37,778 bases of DNA, taken from positions 1 to 37,778 of IMG/VR virus record IMGVR_UViG_3300007523_000026. The stretch is one strand, 5' to 3'. The stretch's first letter is position 1; each line of letters starts with the position of its first letter. The translations under genes were made by a program, and so were the position numbers. Source of the stretch: a virus. The notes under the pieces were generated by a model. It was not told the DNA's origin. It worked only from the letters and a program-made list of their open reading frames with translations, and did no database searches. Positions 1 to 37,778 of the stretch are shown here, in pieces.

Positions 1-150
1 GTGCGGCCCCTGCTGCTCCGGCCGCCCGGGGGCCCCGGGCTGGCCTGGCGGCCGGGGCGGCCCGGGCGGGCTGGGCTGTGAGGGCGAGCGGGGGGGGGGG
101 GGTTAGGTGAGAGCGGTTTGGGGGGCGCCGGGGGGCCTCGATGCGTGTGT
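1..150. other. Low-complexity, very GC-rich window end
   Basis: The first ~150 bases are almost only G and C, with short GGCC/CCGGG blocks, a run of 13 G at 90-102 and a run of six G at 120-125. No reading frame here has protein-like composition. The texture differs from everything downstream, where normal phage coding sequence begins. It may be a poor-quality contig end or chimeric sequence rather than phage DNA. I see no gene in 1-462 apart from the repeat and promoter candidate listed separately. Confidence 0.6.
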
Positions 151-157
151 ACCCTCC

Positions 158-260
158 CGGGATACGCAGACCCTTCCAGAACTTTCTCAGGAAAAAAAAA
201 GGCACATCACGGGATACGCAAACGATTCCCACGAATTACCAGAAAAAAAACAGACCATCC
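158..260. repeat. Two-copy ~52-bp imperfect direct repeat with A-tracts upstream of terminase
   Basis: The 11-mer CGGGATACGCA occurs exactly at 158-168 and 210-220. Each copy is followed at the same distance by a TTCC block, a CAG or CCAG, and a run of A (nine at 192-200, eight at 243-250). The units are therefore about 52 bp, close to five helical turns. The position directly upstream of the small terminase gene is where cos/pac and TerS-binding sites often lie. That function is an inference from position and A-tract bending; the repeat itself is visible. Confidence 0.6.
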
Positions 261-307
261 CCAAAATAGCCTTACGTCGTTCTATCAGGTCCCCAAACAT
301 CACCCGC

Positions 308-336
308 TTGACGTTGCTCCACGAAAACCCTACTGT
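308..336 (+). promoter_or_regulatory. Candidate sigma70-type promoter for the terminase/head operon
   Basis: TTGACG at 308-313 matches the -35 consensus at five of six positions. A 17-bp spacer follows, then TACTGT at 331-336, a weak -10 that keeps TA...T. It faces the terminase genes about 120 bp upstream of the small-subunit start, in one of the few longer non-coding stretches of the rightward block. Judged by eye only. Confidence 0.35.
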
Positions 337-462
337 GTGGCCCGCCAGCCCTCCATGTTCGTTCCCCGACTTGGTGTGGGTGCCCCTGGCAAGCTGCCCT
401 TGGTCGGGCGGCAGCATACAAGTAGCCCGACCATTGTGATCGAACTCGAAGGGGAAGCCCGA

Positions 463-1041
463 GTGAAACCGCTGACTGCCATGGAGATCCAAGCCGTCGA
501 TCACTACGTCTCCACGCCCGGCTGCAGCAAGGGCCAGGCGATGCGTGTGGCCGGCTACTCCCGAACGGTCACCGACAACCCCCAGAAGATGTTCAACAAA
601 CCGAACGTGGCCGCGGAAGTGCGACGCCGCCGCGAGATCATGGCCAGAAGGGCGGAAGTCACCGAGGAGAGGATCGTTGCCGAGTACGCCCGTATCGCCT
701 TCGGCAGCATCGCGAAGTTCAAGAAGGTGGACTTCAATGGCGGCCTGTATTGGGATTTCACCGGCGCTACGGAAGAAGACCTTGAGTTGATCGAGGCGAT
801 GGACACGGAGACCTATGTCGATGGCCGTGGCGAGGAAAGCCGGATCGTCAAGAAGCTGAAGATCAAGCCGTATCCCAAGTTGCAGGCACTCGACGCACTG
901 GCGAGGCATCTGGGGCTGTTCAAGGACAGCGTGAACGTCACCCATGAGGTTACGCTGGTGGATCGCATGACACGCGGCCGCGAGCGGGTTTTCAGCCAAC
1001 AGGTGATCGAAGGGCAGGCAGAGAAGGTCGAGGATGCCTAA
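463..1041 (+). CDS. terS: Terminase small subunit (TerS, Terminase_2-like)
   Basis: 192-aa protein that would bind the packaging site and load the large terminase. The N-terminal part has the layout of the Terminase_2 family: a helix-turn-helix region around residues 5-35 ending in an AGYS motif (VAGYSRTV), then a conserved Pro-x-Val segment (KPNVAAEVRRRRE) and a basic helical stretch. I chose the GTG at 463 because AAGGGGAA lies just upstream at 449-456, the same ribosome-site variant used by many genes here. The ATG at 481 is the alternative. The frame is open further upstream (to 118), but that extension runs through the repeat region and is not protein-like. The stop overlaps the large-subunit start by 8 bases, so the two are probably co-translated. 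Confidence 0.85.
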   Translation: MKPLTAMEIQAVDHYVSTPGCSKGQAMRVAGYSRTVTDNPQKMFNKPNVAAEVRRRREIMARRAEVTEERIVAEYARIAFGSIAKFKKVDFNGGLYWDFTGATEEDLELIEAMDTETYVDGRGEESRIVKKLKIKPYPKLQALDALARHLGLFKDSVNVTHEVTLVDRMTRGRERVFSQQVIEGQAEKVEDA

Positions 1042-2602
1042 CGTCCCCAAGGTAACGCCTGAAGAGCAGTTGGCTGGGGACCTGGGGATGCTCTACGCCG
1101 ATCCCTTGGGTTATGTCATGTACGCCTTCCCGTGGGACATCGAGCGGTCGATCCAGATGGTCGAGTTGAAGCCCCACTTTCAGGAGCGGTTCAACGGCAC
1201 GAAGTTTGGCCCCGACGAGTGGGCCTGTGACTTCCTCGACGACCTGGCAGCCGAGATCAAACTGCGACGGTTCGACGGCACCAACGCCGTCATGCCCATC
1301 CAGTTCGCCACCTCCAGCGGTCACGGTATTGGAAAATCGACCCTCGCTGCGTGGCTGGCGAAGTTCATCCTCGATACCCGCCCCTACAGCCGTGGCGTCA
1401 TCACGGCCAACACCGCCGATCAGTTGAAGACGAAGACGTGGGCCGAGGTCGGCAAGTGGCACAACTTGTCGGTCACGAAGCATTGGTTCAGCTATTCCAG
1501 CGGTCGCGGCGCCATGTCACTCACACACAAGGAGTTCAAGGAGAACTGGCGCTGCGATGCCCAGACCTCACGCGAGGAGAACTCCGAAGCCTTCGCCGGT
1601 CTCCATGCCGCCAACTCGACGCCGTTCTACATTTTCGATGAGTCATCGGCCATCGCCAACCGCATCTTCGAGGTTCGTGAGGGCGGTACGACGGACGGCG
1701 AGCCGATGGTCTTCGACTTCGGAAACCCGACACGAAACAGCGGTCACTTCTTCGAGGAGTGCAAGGGCGAAATCTCCAAGCGGATCAAGGTCAGGCAGAT
1801 CGACTCCCGCAACGTGGCCATCACCAACAAGGCCCGAATTCAGCAGTGGATCGACGACTACGGTGAAAACAGCGATTTCGTCAAGGTCCGCGTCAGGGGT
1901 GAGTTCCCCTCCGCATCGTCGCTCCAGTTCATCGCGACCGAACTCGTTGAAGCAGCGTTCAAGAAAGAACTGATTGTCGATCGTTTCGCTCCTCTCGTCA
2001 TCGGCGTTGACGTAGCAAGGTTCGGTGACGACGAGACCGTCATCTACCCCCGTATCGGAGACGACGCGCGTTCGTTCCCCCCGAAGCGGTACAGTCAACT
2101 CGACACCATCCAGATCACCGGGCAGGTCACGGGCATGATCCGTGAGTTCCGCAAGATCGGCATGGAGCCATCGGCCATCTTCATCGACGGTGGCGGCGGC
2201 TACGGTGGTGGCGTCGTCGATAACCTCCGGGCGCTCGGCTTCACTGTCTTCGAGGTTCAGTTCGGCGGGTCGCCTCTCGACAAGCAGGCTTACCGCTTCA
2301 AGGCCGACGAGATGTGGGGGAACATGCGTGACGCCCTGACCGCTGGCCGTCTTGCCCTGCCCGACAATCCCGACATCAAGAGCCAGTTGACGCAACGTGA
2401 GTTCGGCTATACCTTGAAGCAGCAAGTGAACCTTGAGTCCAAGAAGGACATGAAGGCGAGAGGTCTCATGTCGCCCGATATTGCTGACGCCCTGGCTCTC
2501 ACGTATGCTCAGGAAGTCGAACGCCTCGATCTCCCAATCGGGGAGGCCCGCGAGAACAGAACCGTCCAGCACGAGTACGATCCGCTGGAGCAGAAATGGT
2601 AG
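1034..2602 (+). CDS. terL: Terminase large subunit (TerL), ATPase plus nuclease
   Basis: 522-aa packaging motor that pumps DNA into the prohead and cuts it. The ATPase half (about residues 20-295) has Walker A SGHGIGKST (K101) and Walker B FYIFDES (D202, E203). The nuclease half (from about 315) has an RNase H-like fold signature: D326 in VIGVDVARFGDDE, D385 in IFIDGGGGYGGG, and a third acid in SPDIADALALTY near residues 482-485. Length and motif order are normal for TerL. The start is coupled to the small subunit. A catalytically broken copy of residues ~21-291 sits on the other strand at 29034-29861, so this is one of two related genes in the window. Confidence 0.95.
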   Translation: MPNVPKVTPEEQLAGDLGMLYADPLGYVMYAFPWDIERSIQMVELKPHFQERFNGTKFGPDEWACDFLDDLAAEIKLRRFDGTNAVMPIQFATSSGHGIGKSTLAAWLAKFILDTRPYSRGVITANTADQLKTKTWAEVGKWHNLSVTKHWFSYSSGRGAMSLTHKEFKENWRCDAQTSREENSEAFAGLHAANSTPFYIFDESSAIANRIFEVREGGTTDGEPMVFDFGNPTRNSGHFFEECKGEISKRIKVRQIDSRNVAITNKARIQQWIDDYGENSDFVKVRVRGEFPSASSLQFIATELVEAAFKKELIVDRFAPLVIGVDVARFGDDETVIYPRIGDDARSFPPKRYSQLDTIQITGQVTGMIREFRKIGMEPSAIFIDGGGGYGGGVVDNLRALGFTVFEVQFGGSPLDKQAYRFKADEMWGNMRDALTAGRLALPDNPDIKSQLTQREFGYTLKQQVNLESKKDMKARGLMSPDIADALALTYAQEVERLDLPIGEARENRTVQHEYDPLEQKW

Positions 2603-28027: not shown

Positions 28028-28672
28028 TTATCCCGCCCGGCGACGACGGCTGGAGCCGCCTTCGTCGTTCGAGGCCGTGCGACCGACCGGCTTGAACGCG
28101 CCGGCAGCCGAATTGGAGACGAGGCGCTCACCCTCGCCGGTCCACTGGAAGCCCTTGAGGTAGAGGTTGACGCCGGGCTTGCCGTCGCGACCGATCGGGT
28201 CGTAGCAGTTGACCTCGATCAGAGCCATGCCCATGCAACCCTGATAGACGGTGCCGCGCTGGGTAAAGTCCAGAGCGTTGCCGTCATCGCCGGCCACATA
28301 GACGCCACCGGGCGCGTCCTGGCCATCGAGGTTGAACTGGGTGCTGGCTCGGATCACGAGCTTGCCGACGTAGGCGTCACCCTGCTTGCCCTTGGCCACA
28401 CGCTTGGCCGCGAGATCATCGCCGTCGAGGATCGGGGAGTTGATCTTGCCCTCATCATAGTCCTTCTCGGCACTGGCGCCCCACTTGGTAACACAGGCGT
28501 CGACGATGGCGTCTTCCAGGTCCTTCAGGTCGTCGGGGTCGAAGGCCATCTCGATCTTGTAGGAGGGCTTGCCCTCGTTGCCCTTGGCGTCCACGAACTT
28601 GTCCTTCTCGAACAGAGCGTGGTTGATGAGCCGGCCGACGGGAGTGAGAATCTGCGTCTTTTCGGTAGCCAT
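28028..28672 (-). CDS. DUF2815 ssDNA-binding protein
   Basis: 214 aa. The N-terminus ILTPVGRLINHALFEKD, the middle YKIEMAFDPDDLKDLE, and the OB-fold-like tail FTQRGTVYQGCMGMALIEVN with GVNLYLKGFQW are the DUF2815 family pattern. These are phage single-strand binding proteins usually adjacent to a DUF2800 nuclease and a family A polymerase. The end is disordered and basic (SSRRRRAG). The start ATG 28672 is preceded by a 20-bp element shared with the gene before (see the repeat entry). Confidence 0.85.
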   Translation of the reverse strand: MATEKTQILTPVGRLINHALFEKDKFVDAKGNEGKPSYKIEMAFDPDDLKDLEDAIVDACVTKWGASAEKDYDEGKINSPILDGDDLAAKRVAKGKQGDAYVGKLVIRASTQFNLDGQDAPGGVYVAGDDGNALDFTQRGTVYQGCMGMALIEVNCYDPIGRDGKPGVNLYLKGFQWTGEGERLVSNSAAGAFKPVGRTASNDEGGSSRRRRAG

Positions 28673-28673
28673 G

Positions 28674-28994
28674 TCAGTGTTCCCCTTTCGTGGGAGTGGA
28701 GTTGTGCTCGTCGAACCTTGCGACGAGTTTCTGGAAAACCTTATGGCCCGTGACATAGGTGACGACGTTCTCGGTGTCCTCAGGGGCGAAGATGTAGGCT
28801 TCGAGGTTGCCCTGCCGCGCCTGCTCGCACTGGCTCTCCTGGTGCGCGCACCTTGCGGAGATACGAACCCGCCGAACCTTGTAGGCCCCGCCGTCAGCGC
28901 CATACTCGTTTCGCACCCCGAGGTCGTTGATGCGAAGCTCGCCGGGCTGGTAGAGGAGGGGTACGTGAATATCCACCTTCTCAATGTCTTGCAT
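28674..28994 (-). CDS. Hypothetical 106-aa protein beside the ssDNA-binding gene
   Basis: Starts ATG 28994 after AAAGGGGAAGAAGTA. Sequence: KVDIHVPLLYQPGELRINDL, a small beta-rich front, then CAHQESQCEQARQGN with two Cys, and a helical end. No family recognised. It and the dead terminase copy lie between the DUF2800 and DUF2815 genes, which in related phages usually adjoin. Confidence 0.62.
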   Translation of the reverse strand: MQDIEKVDIHVPLLYQPGELRINDLGVRNEYGADGGAYKVRRVRISARCAHQESQCEQARQGNLEAYIFAPEDTENVVTYVTGHKVFQKLVARFDEHNSTPTKGEH

Positions 28995-29020
28995 TACTTC
29001 TTCCCCTTTCGTGGGAGTGG
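28680..29020 (-). repeat. Two identical 20-bp upstream elements containing the ribosome site
   Basis: 28680-28699 and 29001-29020 are identical. Read on the minus strand each ends in AAAGGGGAA, which is the ribosome site of the DUF2815 gene and of the 106-aa gene respectively. The rest of the element (CCACTCCCACG) is shared but is not part of a standard ribosome site, so the pair may be a duplicated regulatory element or a mark of recombination. Confidence 0.85.
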
Positions 29021-29033
29021 TTGAAACGAAACT

Positions 29034-29861
29034 CTATTTCGGCGGAAGTCCAAGAACGCGGGTGCGGTAGTGATCGCTATCGCGCCCATAGGTGTCAGCC
29101 CATTCAGCGATGACAGTCTTGTTCGTGATTTCGACATCCTCGGACGACACGCGACGGACGTAGACATTCGTGTCCTGGCCGCGACACTCCTCGGTGAAGC
29201 GCCCTTCACCGCGAAGCTGCTGACCGAAGTCGAAGATCATCGGTTCTCCGTCGCGCATGCAGCCTTCGCGAGTGTCAAAGAATGGGTCGGGGGTGCCCGC
29301 AGCGCCGTCGAAGATGAAGAAAGCGGTTGACCGCCCCGACATTGTACCGGCGATTGCTTTGGGGCCTTCGATACTGGTCACCCCGTTCACCACCCTCCAC
29401 TGGCGCCGCTCATCGTTGCGCGACATGATAGTGCCCTCAACTTCGAAGTCGTCTCGGGTGCGTGACATGCTGTGCCACTTATCGAGTTCCGGCCACGCTT
29501 TATCGGTGAGCGAGTGTCTTGTCGGCGTCACGATCACGCCCTCGGAGCCCGCGCGCGTGTCAAGGATGAACTTCGCGATCCACGACGCCAGTGCGGTCAC
29601 CCCTACCCCGTGACCGGAGGGAATGGCCATGCGGACGGGCTTGACGGCGTTGAAGCCATTGAACCCCCGCGCCTTGATCTCGGAGCCGAGCCGATCCAAT
29701 ACCTCGCATTGCCAAGGCATCGGTCCATGTCGGCAGCCCTTGAAGCGATTACGGTACTCGCCTTGGAGTTCGACCACCTGGATCGACCGCTCGGTTCGCC
29801 ACGGGAACGCCCACATGACATAACCGAGAGGGTCAGCGTAGAAATCCGCTTGATGGGTCAT
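29034..29861 (-). CDS. Catalytically dead terminase large-subunit paralogue (ATPase half only)
   Basis: 275 aa. It aligns without gaps to TerL residues 21-116, with 58 of 96 identical by hand count, and keeps matching blocks to about TerL residue 291 (DGEPMIFDFG, then EECRG and EITNK). Walker A is SGHGVGVTAL: the catalytic Lys is Val88 and the Ser is Thr89. Walker B is FFIFDG: Asp185 is kept, but the catalytic Glu is Gly186. The protein stops (GLPPK) exactly where the nuclease half of TerL begins. ATP hydrolysis and cleavage should both be lost, while the fold and surface look retained. The ATG at 29861 overlaps the nuclease gene stop (TGATG). It may bind TerL, TerS, portal or DNA. Confidence 0.88.
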   Translation of the reverse strand: MTHQADFYADPLGYVMWAFPWRTERSIQVVELQGEYRNRFKGCRHGPMPWQCEVLDRLGSEIKARGFNGFNAVKPVRMAIPSGHGVGVTALASWIAKFILDTRAGSEGVIVTPTRHSLTDKAWPELDKWHSMSRTRDDFEVEGTIMSRNDERRQWRVVNGVTSIEGPKAIAGTMSGRSTAFFIFDGAAGTPDPFFDTREGCMRDGEPMIFDFGQQLRGEGRFTEECRGQDTNVYVRRVSSEDVEITNKTVIAEWADTYGRDSDHYRTRVLGLPPK

Positions 29862-31033
29862 CACTTCTTGCGCGCGTCTTTGAACGCGCTCTTGGTGTCT
29901 TTGGAAACGGCGGGCCGGTTGTCGCTGTCCTTGACCACCGTCAGCCCGGCGTCAGGCGCGTAGGCGTAGCGCGCCGAGAACGCTTTGCCCTCGGACATCT
30001 TCTCGATCTGGGCAGGCGACTTCAGTTCGGGATCGCTGAACGCGGCCTTCTTGAACTTGGCGATCGCTGCCTCCTCGGCGTCGTCCTTCCAGATACGGTT
30101 GGCACGAGCGTTGGCCAGCTTGCGACCGGGGATCGGGTTCCCGCTGCTGAGACGGGCGAACGCCGTCTCACCGGCAGCCTTGGCAGCGATCTTGGCGATG
30201 TCGAACAGGTCGAGCATCCGACCGACCTGATCGTTCGTGAGTTCGGGAGCGGGTGCGGCCATCAGTTCCTCCAATTCGTCCATGTCGGACATGATCTGCG
30301 GGCAGGCGCGGGTGCGGGCAGGACAAAAGCGGCAGTGCTCACCGCTGGCGGTCGCGTCGGACGTTCCCGCGGCATCCATCGCGGGGACCAGGACATCGGT
30401 CATCCAGTCCCAGAGATCGTCGGTCGAGATCGACCACTCGCGGATCGGTCCGTTCCAGTGGAAGCCCCTCGGCTGGCAGACGACGACGTTGACCGTCTCG
30501 ACCTTGTTCCAGATGTCGAGCGTGTCGAGCATTCCGCAGGCGTAGTACATCAGTTGCGGGTTGTCCTCGACCTCGACGACGATGCCGGCGCCATGCTTGT
30601 AGTCCCAGACGTGAAGGGTCTCGTCTTCCTCGTCGAAGTGGCAGAAGTCGGACGTGCCATAGAACTGCGGGTGAATGCCGGGGCAGTGGAACGAACGCTC
30701 GACCCACGAGTTGCCCTGATTGCGTTCGGGATAGCGGGTGCGAATGGCGTCGAGATAGACCTGCACGGCATCGGCCATGTCCTTGTCGACATCGAAGACT
30801 TCCAGCGTTCGGGCGAAATCGGATGATGCCATGGCGCCAATGAATTCCCATGCTTGCGCATCGGTACTCAGGCACATCTCGCCCAGCGTGTGCGCATTGG
30901 TGCCAAGGCTCGCGTGTTCGCTCTCGCCGTCCTCGATCCCTTCGCTCAGGGTGACGGAAGCCGGACAGTGCATCCAGCGATGGGCGCCCGAAGCCCCCAG
31001 CGGAGAGTGGCCAGTCGGAAGGATTGCGTTCAT
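29861..31033 (-). CDS. DUF2800 Cas4/PD-(D/E)XK-like exonuclease
   Basis: 390 aa. N-terminal LGASGAHRWMHCPASVTLSE; middle GTSDFCHFDEEDETLHVWDY followed by KHG, the GT-x-D...D-x-K nuclease signature; and VEVEDNPQLMYYACGML. A late Cys cluster HCRFCPARTRACP could bind an Fe-S cluster, as in Cas4/AddB. It is expected to act in phage recombination or replication with the ssDNA-binding protein. Start: ATG 31033, overlapping the previous stop by one base (TGATG); the GTG codon before it is also possible. Confidence 0.85.
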   Translation of the reverse strand: MNAILPTGHSPLGASGAHRWMHCPASVTLSEGIEDGESEHASLGTNAHTLGEMCLSTDAQAWEFIGAMASSDFARTLEVFDVDKDMADAVQVYLDAIRTRYPERNQGNSWVERSFHCPGIHPQFYGTSDFCHFDEEDETLHVWDYKHGAGIVVEVEDNPQLMYYACGMLDTLDIWNKVETVNVVVCQPRGFHWNGPIREWSISTDDLWDWMTDVLVPAMDAAGTSDATASGEHCRFCPARTRACPQIMSDMDELEELMAAPAPELTNDQVGRMLDLFDIAKIAAKAAGETAFARLSSGNPIPGRKLANARANRIWKDDAEEAAIAKFKKAAFSDPELKSPAQIEKMSEGKAFSARYAYAPDAGLTVVKDSDNRPAVSKDTKSAFKDARKK

Positions 31034-31689
31034 CACGCGCCCCCCATCGCTGCGTCGATGGTCTCGACGAAGGCGCGACGGTCTGCGCCCTTGAGGTTGG
31101 ACGGGCTTGTCACACCGAAGCTCTTGAGGATGGCCATGATCGGCTTCGGCGTGAGCTTCTGCGCGCCCTCGCTGGCCTTCTTGCCCAGATCGAGATCGGT
31201 CAGTTCGTCGCCACCGTCACTGCCACCAGCACTGCGACGACCACGGCGACCATCGGCAGGAGCAGGATCGTCAGCAGCAGGCTCAGGCGTCTGTTCCGGC
31301 GCTGCCGTTGCTCGCGCGCGGCGGCCTCGGCGTCCCGTCGCTGCTCCTGCTGGCGCAGGGTCAGGTTCATCTGCAACCGCCACAACTGCATCTGCAGCTC
31401 CGGCGCCATCATCTCCAGCATCGTCTGCGGGCTTGCTGCGGCGTCGGCGCTTGGGGGCAGCGGCGGGTGCTTCTTCGACGGCCACGTTGTCGGTCTGCTG
31501 GATGACATCGGAAGCGGCCTCCTTTTTGTTGTCGTAGTCGTCGCGGATGGTGCTGACCGGGCGGATCGAGAGTTCGACCTCGCCCGTGATGAGCGAAATC
31601 CCGTCGAAGTCCTCAACCGGCCCAATGAGAGTGATTGTCACACCCGCTATGCCTTCGGCGCATTCGTAGTTGAAACTATTGATCTTCAT
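31033..31689 (-). CDS. Hypothetical protein with long disordered charged middle
   Basis: 218 aa. Residues 1-55 form a compact beta-like part (INSFNYECAEGIAGVTITLI), and residues ~70-155 are disordered, rich in Ala, Pro, Asp and basic RRGRR motifs (three clusters). The C-terminal ~60 residues are helical (KLTPKPIMAILKSFGV). The basic clusters suggest nucleic-acid contact. The start ATG 31689 follows AAGGGGAACACC. No family recognised. Confidence 0.7.
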   Translation of the reverse strand: MKINSFNYECAEGIAGVTITLIGPVEDFDGISLITGEVELSIRPVSTIRDDYDNKKEAASDVIQQTDNVAVEEAPAAAPKRRRRSKPADDAGDDGAGAADAVVAVADEPDPAPAGAATGRRGRRARATAAPEQTPEPAADDPAPADGRRGRRSAGGSDGGDELTDLDLGKKASEGAQKLTPKPIMAILKSFGVTSPSNLKGADRRAFVETIDAAMGGA

Positions 31690-31755
31690 GGTGTTCCCCT
31701 TGGACTGTTTCGGATTGCAACAGAGCGGCGATGGTACACTATCTCTCGGCCAAGT

Positions 31756-31875
31756 TCAAGCGGCCAGCTTCGTGCAGCGATGAAAGCCCATCCCCAGCTT
31801 TTGAAGCGCCCGACCGAGCCATCCAATCGGCTTTCCGCATTGCTGGCACTGCCAACTTTCGTATTTATGGGGCAT
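31756..31875 (-). CDS. 39-aa zinc-ribbon peptide
   Basis: Starts ATG 31875 after AAGGAGAAG and lies in the gap downstream of the helicase gene. Cysteines 10 and 13 (WQCQQCGKP) and the FHRC near residues 31-34 form a possible zinc site. A small protein of this kind is common in phage early operons. No function known. Confidence 0.65.
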   Translation of the reverse strand: MPHKYESWQCQQCGKPIGWLGRALQKLGMGFHRCTKLAA

Positions 31876-31888
31876 CTCGTCTTCTCCT

Positions 31889-33370
31889 TTATCTGGCGTC
31901 CAGCGCCATGTAGATGTTCTTGTCCTTGGCGATCGCTGTTCCCAGGATGCGCTCGTCGAGGGTATCGGGCACGACGGGGACGTGGCCGGTGACGTGATCG
32001 CCCGTCTGGCCCATCCGGTGAATGCGGTCGAGCATCTGGTCGTTCTTCCCCGGCACCCAATCAGGCTCGGCAAACACGACATCCTGCGCTTGTGCCAGCG
32101 TCCAGCCCTCCCCGAGCGGTATCATCTGGCCGAGGATGATCTTGATGTCGTCGCGTTGCTGGAAGGCATCGACAGCCTTCTGCTTGTTGTTGCCCGAAGT
32201 CGAGCCGTCCATGTAGACGAGGCCGTGTTTGTCGAGCCGCTTGCGCAGATATTCCAGCACCGTCTTGTGCCAGGCGCTCACGACAACCTTCTCGACGCCG
32301 CTCTCCAGCAGGTCCTCGACGTACTCGGCAACCGATGGAGCCTTGGCCTCGCCCAGCACCCGTCGCGCCGTCGCGACTTCACCGTCGATCGGGACTCCAT
32401 GATTGAAGCTGTCGTGGTCCATCTCGTACAGCTTCTCGGCCATCTTCCAGCCGGGGTGCTTGAGTGCCTTGCGAATGTCGCTGGTCATACTCATGGGAAA
32501 GGGGTGCCACTGCTTGAGGGGAAGCTCGTGGAGGCACTGGGCTTTCAGTCGCCGCACCATGAGTCGGCTGCGTAGGCGATATTGGAAGTCGTCAAGGTTC
32601 CGAGGCTGGTTGCGAACCGTATCAGACCAGTGCAGCTTGTTGCTCCAGACCTGTGTCTCAAGATCAAAGACAGGACTGCGGACCATTCCGCCGCCCGCCT
32701 CGTAGTAGAACTCTCGGAAGTCTTCGAGGCTGGCGTTGTTGATGGCGCCCCAGTCGAGCAAACGGAAGGCGTTGTACGCCTCGATCGGCTGGTTCGGAAG
32801 CAGACTGCCCGTGGCCAGGGTGAAGCGGCCCGTGACGCTCGGGAGCATGTCAGGAGCGCAGATGGTACGGGTACGGCGGTTGCCCTTCGGGTCCTTGATC
32901 GCGTGAGCTTCGTCGAGAATGACGTGATCCCAGTGGTGGTCGAGGATGGCGTCGAGGATCGCGGGGTTCGAGAGCAAGTTGTAGCTAATGATGACGTAGC
33001 TGGCCTTGACGCTGACGCCACGGCTGGCCTTGCCGACGATATATGTCTCTACGTCGGGGATCGTCGACCAGCGCCATATCTCGCGTTCCCAGTTCAAGCG
33101 AAGGGAGGCGGGGCAGACGACAAGAGTGCGCTTCGCTCCGATCGCATTCGACACCAGCACCGATTGCGCCGTCTTCGTGAGGCCGGGTTCATCGCCCAGG
33201 ATGCCGTGGTTGCGATTGAGGATGTACTCGGCGCCGGCAAGTTGGAACTCCTTGACGGACCAGCCGGGTGGGAGATCAGGCACGGGGGCGCGATAGAACA
33301 TCGGATTGACCGCGCGTGAGGCCACGATCCGGTAGTCGTCAGGGTTGATAGTCGAGTGGTCGAGTTGCAA
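31889..33370 (-). CDS. SNF2/DEAD-type helicase
   Basis: 493 aa. Motif I GDEPGLTKTAQ (K66; the usual GLGKT is GLTKT), motif Ia LVVCPASLRLNWERE, motif II ILDEAHAIKD (D153-H156), motif III ATGSLLPNQPIEAY, and C-terminal QMLDRIHRMGQTGD (motif VI). It is a compact SNF2-like helicase, a standard partner of the DUF2800/DUF2815/PolA set in phages; role in replication or recombination. The start is TTG 33370, with AAGGGGAAACAA just upstream; no in-frame ATG fits as well. Confidence 0.88.
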   Translation of the reverse strand: MQLDHSTINPDDYRIVASRAVNPMFYRAPVPDLPPGWSVKEFQLAGAEYILNRNHGILGDEPGLTKTAQSVLVSNAIGAKRTLVVCPASLRLNWEREIWRWSTIPDVETYIVGKASRGVSVKASYVIISYNLLSNPAILDAILDHHWDHVILDEAHAIKDPKGNRRTRTICAPDMLPSVTGRFTLATGSLLPNQPIEAYNAFRLLDWGAINNASLEDFREFYYEAGGGMVRSPVFDLETQVWSNKLHWSDTVRNQPRNLDDFQYRLRSRLMVRRLKAQCLHELPLKQWHPFPMSMTSDIRKALKHPGWKMAEKLYEMDHDSFNHGVPIDGEVATARRVLGEAKAPSVAEYVEDLLESGVEKVVVSAWHKTVLEYLRKRLDKHGLVYMDGSTSGNNKQKAVDAFQQRDDIKIILGQMIPLGEGWTLAQAQDVVFAEPDWVPGKNDQMLDRIHRMGQTGDHVTGHVPVVPDTLDERILGTAIAKDKNIYMALDAR

Positions 33371-33405
33371 TTGTTTCCCCTTCGTCGCGGTAAACTTACG
33401 TCGTG

Positions 33406-33498
33406 CTATTCCCCGCCGCGCCCGATGGAGGAAATGATGGCGTCCACGGCGGCGGTGGCGTAGCCTCTGTGGTTCACGCCCATGTCGTCACTCATCAT
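33406..33498 (-). CDS. 30-aa peptide gene enclosed by an inverted repeat
   Basis: Starts ATG 33498, overlapping the preceding stop (ATGA), with GGAGGAG directly upstream. The product begins MMSDDMGVNHRGYATAAVDA and ends ISSIGRGGE. The start and its ribosome site lie in one arm of an inverted repeat and the end of the gene in the other arm. Small, but coupling supports translation. Function unknown. Confidence 0.55.
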   Translation of the reverse strand: MMSDDMGVNHRGYATAAVDAIISSIGRGGE

Positions 33499-33520
33499 CT
33501 CCTCCATCGGGCGTGGCGGG
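33412..33520 (-). repeat. 28-bp inverted repeat (26 of 28 pairing) with 53-bp spacer
   Basis: Arms are 33412-33439 and 33493-33520. Two mismatches only; the inner 21 bp have one. In the leftward mRNA it would form a long stem that hides the GGAGGAG ribosome site and the ATGATG start of the 30-aa peptide, so it may control that gene or mark a small mobile or recombination element. Confidence 0.85.
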
Positions 33521-33908: not shown

Positions 33909-34339
33909 GTCGGCTCTCCCTCGGGACCATTGCCCAGCGCGCGGATGGCGGCAATCGCCCTCGCGCATCCGGGGCCTATCAGGTTCTGCTCGAAACTGGT
34001 AAGCGCGCTTTTCGTTCGGACGTTGGGGGCCTCACGCCATAACCGCTTCACTTCCGCCTCCGCCCGCTCCATACCCCCGCGCTCGGCTGCGATCAGGGCG
34101 GCCTCGATGTCGTTTGCCAGTTCGGACAATCGCGGCTCTGCGATGTATCCCGAAACGCTGGCGGCAATCTCTCTGGCGGCCTTTGCGACAGCTTGTGCGG
34201 CGTCGGCGGCGGCCTGGTCGCTGGCGATGGCGGAGGCCCATGCGGCGGCCCATGCGGCGGCCCATGCGTCGCCGGCGGCCTCGATGGCGTAGACGTATTC
34301 GTTGGCGATTTCTTCGGCGGTCTTATGGGCGTCGATCAT
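33905..34339 (-). CDS. Ala-rich helical protein with AWAAAWAA repeats
   Basis: 144 aa. Residues 21-55 are extremely Ala-rich (DAWAAAWAAAWASAIASDQ), built from a 12-bp tandem repeat; then helical regions with AEAEVKRLW and a FEQNLIGPGCARAIAAIRAL tail. It and the larger protein two genes upstream (34548-35333) share this Ala-repeat style. The start overlaps the upstream stop (ATGA). Function unknown. Confidence 0.65.
   Translation of the reverse strand: MIDAHKTAEEIANEYVYAIEAAGDAWAAAWAAAWASAIASDQAAADAAQAVAKAAREIAASVSGYIAEPRLSELANDIEAALIAAERGGMERAEAEVKRLWREAPNVRTKSALTSFEQNLIGPGCARAIAAIRALGNGPEGEPT
34235..34270. repeat. Three tandem 12-bp units in the Ala-rich gene
   Basis: The 12-mer GGCCCATGCGGC occurs at 34235-34246 and 34247-34258, with a one-base variant at 34259-34270. 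On the coding (minus) strand it gives the AWAA repeats. Array length could vary between relatives by slippage. Confidence 0.85.
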
Positions 34340-34551
34340 ACTACGGTCCTCCTGTTGTTCTCGGCGGGCGCGGCACCTTCGGCAAACCCGTACTGCTCCA
34401 GGATGTCGATCACGTCATTCAGGGCCTCGGAGTACCCAGATGCCATCGGGTCGCCGGGGCACACGGCACCACCCAGCGCGTCGATGTCGCGCCAGAGGTC
34501 GTTCAAGTCGGTCATTGTTTTGTTCCTCTGTGCAGTTGTGTCGTCACTCAT
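34336..34551 (-). CDS. Small hypothetical protein (71 aa)
   Basis: Start ATG 34551 by ATGA coupling; an internal ATG at 34515 with AGAGGA upstream is an alternative that would give 59 aa. Sequence includes LNDLWRDIDALGGAVCPGDP and SGYSEALNDVIDILEQYGF, a helical design common in phage early genes that often have no known function. Confidence 0.65.
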   Translation of the reverse strand: MSDDTTAQRNKTMTDLNDLWRDIDALGGAVCPGDPMASGYSEALNDVIDILEQYGFAEGAAPAENNRRTVV

Positions 34552-35333
34552 GGCAGTTCCCCTGTTTCCAGCATCTGCATGAGAGCGCGTACCTGTTCGG
34601 CCTTGGCGGCGGCCCTTACGGCGGACTCTGCGTCCCATGCGGCGGTCCCTGCGTCGGCCCGTGCGGCCCGTGCGGTGTCGGCGGCGGCCCCTGCGGCGGC
34701 CCATGCGGCCCATACGGCGGCCCCTGCGGTGGCCCTTGCAGCCTCCCCTGCGGCGTCTCGTGCGTCGGACCGTGCGGCATCGGCGGCCCGTGCAGCGTCC
34801 TCTGCGGCGGCCCGTGCGGCGGCCCGTGCGGCGTACTGTGCGGCGGCAGAACGGGCGGCGGACCCTGTGGCGGCCAGTGCGCCGTCGGCGCGGATCAGTG
34901 CGCTCGCGGGGAGATCGCCAACGGCGACCCTTCGTGCCGTCTTGATACACTGGCGAGGCCGCGTGTCGTGCGGGCACTCTGCCTCGAACAGATGCAGCAC
35001 CTGTTCCGCGCACCAGCATGCGAACAGGCGTGCGGTCCGCTCATTCCAGTGCTCGCAGTGGCGGAGCAGCCGGACGTTGCGAGCGACAACCTTGTCGGAC
35101 CTCTCTACCACGCGGCCCTTGGTCTCGGCCTCCCAGATCACCGGGCCGAGCCAATGAATCAGGTCGGCCTCCCGGCAGAGGTGGTAGCCCTTCTTGCACG
35201 GCACGAGCGGGCCCTTGATGGGCGGCATCCACTCTCCCGGCTGGCCACCATCAGGCAGGCTCCACAGCGCGTCCCCGCCGTTGCAGGATCGGCCCTCAGG
35301 GTCGAGGACCTTGAAATATCGTGTGGTGGTCAT
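34548..35333 (-). CDS. Two-part protein: conserved phage front domain and Ala-repeat tail
   Basis: 261 aa from ATG 35333 (ATGA). The first ~130 residues match a conserved phage domain: YFKVLDPEGRSCNGGDALWS, PGEWMPPIKG, CKKGYHLCREADLIHWLGP, then IWEAE (DUF7666-like from memory). Residues ~155-245 are Ala repeats with Arg/Asp every few residues (ARAAARAAAEDAARAADAAR). This would make a very long helix. The repeat DNA also gives long open antisense frames that are not genes. Function unknown. Confidence 0.72.
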   Translation of the reverse strand: MTTTRYFKVLDPEGRSCNGGDALWSLPDGGQPGEWMPPIKGPLVPCKKGYHLCREADLIHWLGPVIWEAETKGRVVERSDKVVARNVRLLRHCEHWNERTARLFACWCAEQVLHLFEAECPHDTRPRQCIKTARRVAVGDLPASALIRADGALAATGSAARSAAAQYAARAAARAAAEDAARAADAARSDARDAAGEAARATAGAAVWAAWAAAGAAADTARAARADAGTAAWDAESAVRAAAKAEQVRALMQMLETGELP

Positions 35334-35575
35334 GGCTGCACCCCGCGTCTGTCGTGCTGGTAGAGATCGCGGCAGGCAGGATGACCCGTGCCGAGGTACG
35401 GAAAGCGAGTCTCGAACTGCGGCCCGTGCTCCCGGTGAACGAATGCTATGACGTGCGCCGGCGGCAGCGCAACGCAGTGTTCGTTGACGAACCCTGTGCA
35501 GGTGTCGCATGTGCGGCCCGTGCGGCGCTCGGTGCGGTTTGCGTCCACGGCTTCGGCGTCCTGTGTGGCGGTCAT
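35330..35575 (-). CDS. Small Cys/His-rich protein
   Basis: 81 aa from ATG 35575, coupled by ATGA on both sides. Contains TCDTCTGFVNEHCVALPP and GTGHPACRDLY: a CxxC plus further Cys/His, likely a zinc-binding fold. No family recognised. Confidence 0.65.
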   Translation of the reverse strand: MTATQDAEAVDANRTERRTGRTCDTCTGFVNEHCVALPPAHVIAFVHREHGPQFETRFPYLGTGHPACRDLYQHDRRGVQP

Positions 35576-36740: not shown

Positions 36741-37778
36741 ATGACGCAATCACTTATCGACGCGGCCATCGCCTATGCAAAGCGGGGCTGGCCAATCATG
36801 CCTGTCAGACAGGACAAGACGCCCTACACCACCAATGGCGTCATGGACGCCACGACTGATCCGGCGCAGATCGAGGCATGGTGGGCCAGATGGCCACGGG
36901 CGAATATCGCGCTCAATTGCGGCGCTGCAAACATGATGGTCGTGGACTTCGACCCAGGCCATACCGATCCAGATGCCCTCGACCTTCCCGAGACACACCT
37001 TCGCCAGACGACACCACGAGGCGGCTTCCACCTGTTCTACGCACTCAAGGAGGGCGAAGTCGTCTCGCCGTCAACGTCCAAGCTGGCGCCGCATGTGGAC
37101 GTGCGCTCGTTCAACTCCTATGTCCTCTTGCCGCCGTCATCGACGCCCGATGGCGTCTATGCGTGGTCCTCAGAAGGCAAGCCGGCATACCGGACGGATG
37201 AGATGGTCAGACTGGCTAACGCTGGCCGCAGGGACAAGCACGAAGACCACGACCGTTGGCTGATCGAAGCCGACCTGCCCGAACACGTTGAAGCGGCCAC
37301 CAGGTGGCTTCAGAAGGACGCCAAGGTTGCTATCAAAGGCCAGGGGGGTGATGCCATGGCCTATGCCACCGCCGCGCACCTGAAAAGCCACGGCATATCA
37401 GAAGAACGCGCCCTCGATCTCATGTTCGACCACTGGAACCCGCGCTGTGTTCCTCCTGAGTGGGGGTATGAGCGTTTAGGTCGGTGCGTCGAACACGCTT
37501 ACAGCTACAACACGTCACCACCGGGCAACATCACGGCAGCCTACCGGAAGGCTGTGCGCGCGGACGCCTTCAAACCGATCGACAAGCCATTGCCGAGTGG
37601 CCGCGAAGTCACCGCGGGCCGCTTCCGCATGGTGGACGATGACGGCATGGAGCATATCCAGCCGCCGCAATGGATCATGGAGGACGTGATCGCAGACGAC
37701 AGTTACAGCCTTATGTTCGGCCCGCCGGGGACGTTCAAGAGCTTCATCGCCCTCGACATCGCGCTCAGTATCGCCACA
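36741..37778 (+). CDS. Primase-polymerase/helicase (partial, cut at window end)
   Basis: 346 codons visible, in frame to the window edge with no stop. The N-terminal prim-pol domain (residues ~5-150) has VVDFDPG (D69, D71) and TPRGGFHLFY (H97), the archaeo-eukaryotic primase-like catalytic residues. A helical middle (CT-type primase region) follows, then the start of a RepA-like AAA ATPase with Walker A GPPGTFKS (K333) just before the end. It would prime and unwind DNA at the phage origin. It is divergent from the replication operon. Confidence 0.88.
   Translation, partial: MTQSLIDAAIAYAKRGWPIMPVRQDKTPYTTNGVMDATTDPAQIEAWWARWPRANIALNCGAANMMVVDFDPGHTDPDALDLPETHLRQTTPRGGFHLFYALKEGEVVSPSTSKLAPHVDVRSFNSYVLLPPSSTPDGVYAWSSEGKPAYRTDEMVRLANAGRRDKHEDHDRWLIEADLPEHVEAATRWLQKDAKVAIKGQGGDAMAYATAAHLKSHGISEERALDLMFDHWNPRCVPPEWGYERLGRCVEHAYSYNTSPPGNITAAYRKAVRADAFKPIDKPLPSGREVTAGRFRMVDDDGMEHIQPPQWIMEDVIADDSYSLMFGPPGTFKSFIALDIALSIAT

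Follow-up and report, generated by a model that had tools for sequence, protein, structure and literature searches.

A putative pseudo-ATPase derived from the phage terminase large subunit, encoded in an accessory slot of a replication operon

Introduction

The large terminase subunit (TerL) is among the proteins that bacterial Avs receptors recognise, and a satellite is known to encode an inhibitor directed at it. Avs1-4 recognise TerL or portal (PMC12931631). The Gpi protein of the V. cholerae satellite PLE targets the TerL of phage ICP1 and blocks packaging (PMC12409358), and satellite-encoded PICI proteins block the phage small terminase TerS (as described in PMC10884400). TerL ATPase domains have also been reported to form oligomers in isolation (PMC5727402), and an ATPase-defective subunit to enter the T4 motor and lower its engagement, speed and success (PMC8589836).

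Here, we analyse a 275-residue protein, named PARA, encoded by a phage seen only in metagenomes (IMG/VR record IMGVR_UViG_3300007523_000026; 37,778 nucleotides, all of which is referred to as the window). Tailed-phage TerL proteins (P74-26, D6E, HK97 and T4 gp17) have an ATPase domain whose fold PARA is predicted to share across its whole length. PARA nevertheless lacks the nuclease half, both the Walker A Lys and the Walker B Glu, and other invariant polar residues, and, unlike tailed-phage TerL, it is encoded in a replication operon. If PARA poisons packaging motors, it would resemble Gpi in acting on TerL to affect packaging and the PICI proteins in being an accessory gene product that interferes with packaging; however, Gpi is satellite-encoded, and the PICI proteins are both satellite-encoded and directed at TerS. 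The ATPase-defective T4 gp17 (Q163A, PMC8589836) is, like PARA, a catalytically dead TerL, but it is a full-length laboratory mutant, whereas PARA is natural and devoid of the nuclease half. PARA would be in this respect a natural counterpart to the artificial doping with dead subunits used in packaging-motor studies. A literature search, whose reach left many subscription papers outside, found no relevant report of a TerL paralogue or TerL pseudo-enzyme in a phage, nor of a dominant-negative TerL or a decoy against Avs. A natural TerL-derived pseudo-enzyme in a phage appears to be new, pseudo-enzyme paralogues and packaging inhibitors being already known kinds.

Results and discussion

PARA is a TerL ATPase domain lacking key catalytic residues

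The minus-strand operon that contains PARA encodes a helicase, a DUF2800 exonuclease, PARA, an orphan protein of 106 residues, an ssDNA-binding protein (ssb) and a DNA polymerase A (features in Table 1). The PARA frame is open, with no stop over its 275 residues, and the A of its ATG start at 29861 is the last base of the DUF2800 stop codon (one-base TGATG overlap), in agreement with the intact frame and the tight coupling to the neighbour that a sequence-only reading had described. PARA and the same neighbours are also found on a second contig (L106, 12,341 bp) that differs from the window at three positions, none of them in PARA, so that the gene is no artefact confined to the assembly of the window. 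The same phage is seen once more in contig L107, whose coverage does not extend to PARA.

Table 1. Features of the PARA locus, of the terminase genes and of the equivalent slot in a relative (window coordinates unless stated)
Feature	Position	Strand	Basis or remark
PARA, 275-aa protein, putatively catalytically dead TerL ATPase domain	29034..29861	-	homology, AF2, Foldseek, VIA
Walker A Lys position, codon GTG, Val88 (TerL K101)	29598..29600	-	sequence; TerL alignments
Walker B Glu position, codon GGC, Gly186 (TerL E203)	29304..29306	-	sequence; TerL alignments
DUF2800 / PD-(D/E)XK exonuclease-like, upstream of PARA	29861..31036	-	PF10926 E 1.6e-71; phrog_69 exonuclease
Orphan 106-aa ORF between PARA and ssb	28674..28994	-	in same insertion; absent from relatives' slot
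Gp2.5/Enc34-like ssDNA-binding protein (ssb)	28028..28675	-	PF10991 E 6.1e-9; at DUF2800 end in close relatives
TerS	118..1041	+	PF03592 E 2.3e-12
Full-length TerL, Walker A/B and nuclease half intact	1034..2602	+	phrog_2 terminase large subunit E 6e-34
Tad2-like (Thoeris anti-defence 2) gene of G024	L115 188-733 = G024 40188-40733	-	PF11195

PARA aligns with the TerL of the window at 45% identity over 273 residues (E 2e-84, TerL 20-292). The sequence-only reading had counted 58 ungapped matches in the 96 residues facing TerL 21-116; this count is exact and well above the maximum of 17 reached in 20,000 shuffles of the stretch, but the block that it covers is only a part of the homology. In the Walker A motif, PARA reads SGHGVGVTA where TerL has SGHGIGKST, and in the Walker B motif FIFDGAA instead of YIFDESS; the Lys to Val and Glu to Gly replacements noticed earlier are thus both present, while the Walker B Asp is retained. 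The protein finishes with GLPPK at TerL residue 292, where TerL carries the linker to its nuclease domain (GEFP|SASS), and the nuclease half is therefore missing at a clean domain boundary, as had been proposed. No remnant of the nuclease half was seen after the PARA stop; the few residues that tblastn aligns beyond it are those of the next gene. By homology and predicted fold, PARA belongs with the TerL ATPase domains, without the Walker A Lys and the complete Walker B Asp-Glu pair and without the C-terminal RNase H-like nuclease domain that characterise TerL.

Modelled alone with AF2, PARA takes the TerL ATPase fold with a pLDDT of 91.5 and a pTM of 0.91 (54 sequences), values that have to be read with an input alignment made of TerLs, which favours this fold; the residue pattern described below is independent evidence. 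The best Foldseek matches of the model are the TerL ATPase domains of P74-26, D6E and Sf6. With VIA, whose best matches are TerL ATPase domains too, the model superimposes on the ATPase domain of P74-26 TerL (Z 22.1, 219 residues, rmsd 2.6), and the matches include the TerL of the Avs3-terminase complex 8dgc (Z 15.7, 228 residues, rmsd 3.5). From these models, we are confident in predicting that PARA adopts the TerL ATPase fold.

The TerL of this phage group, to which that of the window belongs, has no Pfam or NCBIfam match, and its best PHROG, phrog_5902, is labelled as of unknown function despite being clearly a terminase family.

PARA comes from the TerLs of this phage group

By sequence comparison, PARA descends from a TerL ATPase domain of this phage group; in a tree, it branches within the TerLs of the group and its own branch is very long. 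It had been taken for a copy of the phage's own TerL, a parentage that the data do not single out: PARA is about 45-46% identical to the TerL of the window, 48% to that of L151 and 50% to that of L147, other phages' TerLs being equally close or closer, and a clade joining PARA to its own TerL is neither rejected (AU p 0.29) nor required by the tree. PARA may have arisen by duplication or have been imported from a related phage. A larger duplicated block was also considered, and no other paralogous pair was seen on the coding frames of the window.

Protein searches for PARA orthologues in viral contigs, cultured phages, plasmids and GTDB genomes returned full TerLs only, the TerL homologues from viral contigs and genomes being full-length enzymes; the same search in genome_contigs returned nothing, and no PARA orthologue was found outside one phage population. 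Second TerL-like loci were equally absent from the records searched: the 90 viral records searched whole contain at most one each, bar the two of this phage, and 430 cultured-phage records yielded 430 TerL-like places and no second locus. PARA has no match to a defence model in PADLOC at E 0.01.

The residue losses are selective

Among 141 non-redundant TerLs, with invariant columns defined as those conserved in at least 99% of the sequences, PARA has lost six of the seven polar invariant residues (K101V, Q130S, H191M, E203G, S205A and D257S, D202 alone being kept) and none of the 12 non-polar ones (P24, W34, G96, G100, L131, W142, G189, G217, G237, G277, G289 and P292; Fisher p 2.6e-4). The polar/non-polar split was picked after a first list of changed columns had been seen; the enlarged set upheld it, on fewer columns. 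The lost invariant residues went from nine in the smaller set to six, as some TerLs vary at N231, P232 and R259. The Walker residues are intact in every TerL relative tested: the Walker A Lys and Walker B Glu are present in 90 of 90 and 109 of 109 TerLs in two sets, and K, Q, H and DE are all kept in the 109 checked. Against 43 closer TerLs, the conserved positions of the N-terminal 70 residues are retained almost entirely (9/9, 5/5 and 7/8), compared with 4 of 13 before Walker B and 4 of 10 after motif III.

This pattern bears on the proposal that PARA is a recently acquired TerL fragment, functionless, carried by recombination and now decaying. Its restriction to a single lineage, its long branch (2.0 to 3.1 changes per site) and a slot that admits insertions would fit such a fragment, but the frame is intact, the losses are selective rather than random and the coding composition is normal, with G+C by codon position like that of a coding gene. 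In a neutral simulation where the TerL gene was mutated until eight of 10 catalytic-type residues were gone (list taken from the 90-TerL alignment), none of 300 runs remained free of stops; the mean was 6.7 stops, with 11.6 of 18 structural residues lost on average, versus zero stops and one lost residue in the real PARA. In addition, a codon model rejected omega = 1 on the PARA branch (delta lnL 14.2); as synonymous change is saturated and the branch length is at its bound, only this rejection is used, and it spans the whole branch, any functional phase included. Taken together, the selective losses, the intact frame, the simulations and the TerL fold indicate that PARA is a folded and selected pseudo-ATPase, and random decay is rejected on these sequence data; a functionless fragment is accordingly quite improbable. 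The earlier proposal of a maintained pseudo-enzyme derived from the TerL ATPase is in this way upheld: catalytic residues have been lost while the fold, and the N-terminal block in particular, appears to have been under selection.

PARA could also be an active ATPase with a divergent active site, having kept the P-loop glycines and the Walker B Asp. We regard this as very improbable, because substitutions affect the Walker Lys and the catalytic Glu as well as Q130, H191 and D257, which are invariant in TerLs. With six invariant polar residues missing, among them the Walker A Lys and the Walker B Glu, PARA should not hydrolyse ATP, as judged from its sequence.

PARA occupies an accessory slot between DUF2800 and ssb

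Five close relatives (L216-L220), whose DUF2800 proteins are about 45-58% identical to that of the window, were compared at this junction; one of them, G072, has the TerL nearest to that of the window (73%). In four (L216-L219), ssb lies at the end of the DUF2800 gene with nothing in between, and in L220 the two genes are separated by a gap of about 230 bases devoid of such a gene. A search for PARA beside the DUF2800 gene of related phages was thus negative in all close relatives tested. In the syntenic relative G024, the same slot is occupied by a gene for an unrelated Tad2-domain protein (anti-Thoeris; PF11195, E 3.2e-25), and in more distant relatives it is empty or holds small unrelated ORFs. 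The empty slot of the close relatives and the Tad2 gene of G024 indicate that the DUF2800-ssb junction is an accessory slot and that PARA is a lineage-specific insertion.

The orphan 106-residue ORF, for which no relative was found in Pfam, NCBIfam, PADLOC, phages or other viral contigs, the same phage excepted, is possibly a partner of PARA. The leaders that precede this ORF (28994-29030) and ssb (28675-28705) seem to share ACTCCCACGAAAGGGGAA or a closely similar stretch, which seems to be a repeated ribosome-binding leader. No promoter-like site was found in 28500-33500.

These comparisons weigh on two roles that PARA might play for its own phage. The first is that of a motor regulator: PARA would associate with the phage's own TerL (or TerS) or compete with it, and packaging would be delayed or tuned during replication. 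Such a role would be in line with the TerL fold of PARA, with its retained N-terminal block and with the ability of inactive subunits to enter and slow T4 motors (PMC8589836). However, close relatives package their DNA without PARA, the slot is accessory, and other TerLs match PARA at least as well as its own does. The suggestion that it times the packaging of its own phage is weakened by the same comparison, the close relatives tested having one TerL and no PARA, and the slot being variable, with a Tad2-domain gene in one relative. Binding to the portal, another of the early suggestions, is not favoured either, since D6E TerL is proposed to contact the portal through a C-terminal arm (PMC5727402) that is missing from PARA. 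That PARA tunes its own motor is unlikely, and less likely than a mimic used in conflict. In the second role, PARA would be neofunctionalised as a replication or recombination partner, binding DNA or serving as an adaptor for the DUF2800 exonuclease and ssb. The translational overlap with DUF2800 and the nearby ssb would suit this partnership, which we also hold to be unlikely, as the exonuclease and ssb of the relatives manage without PARA and no basic charge has been gained (net charge of -2.0 for PARA versus -2.6 for the TerL domain).

A proposed mimic of TerL used in conflict

A TerL fold selected without ATPase chemistry, an accessory slot and the absence from close relatives make it the best reading that PARA is a non-catalytic mimic of the TerL ATPase, maintained as a lineage-specific accessory gene and used in conflict, to which we give a probability of roughly 45%. 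We infer this function from a single phage population. Judging from the position in the operon, PARA would be expressed together with the replication genes, probably ahead of the virion TerL, and would act in a conflict between phage and host or between phages by occupying a normal binding partner of TerL. The most likely single target would be a TerL-sensing receptor of the Avs1-3 type, for which PARA might serve as a non-activating decoy, the dead domain made ahead of TerL occupying the receptor without activating it. The next most likely target would be the TerL ring of co-infecting phages, which PARA might enter and stall. The decoy is placed slightly ahead of the motor poison, since a relative carries an anti-defence gene in this slot and since a poison must leave unharmed the phage's own TerL, whose escape would have to be explained. 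The Tad2 parallel comes from one relative, G024, and a TerL-like protein might trigger Avs instead of blocking it. Inhibition of Avs is suggested by the TerL mimicry and the slot, and a Gpi-like blocking of TerL by homology to ring-forming proteins.

More generally, and still tentatively, phages may be able to domesticate the TerL ATPase domain as a dedicated dead mimic, either as an immunity decoy or as a staller of competitors' motors. If PARA is such a TerL mimic, it would offer a natural inhibitor or decoy and a viral case for the study of pseudo-enzymes.

Other observations in the window

Comparison with G024 indicates that the record lacks roughly 5 kb of the genome, and a primase-like ORF (36741-37778) runs off the right end of the window. 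The Imm5_like Pfam match of the ORF at 34548-35510 may reflect composition. Dense imperfect repeats in steps of 9-12 bases (GCGGCCCATGCG-like) are found at 34179-34874, within overlapping ORFs.
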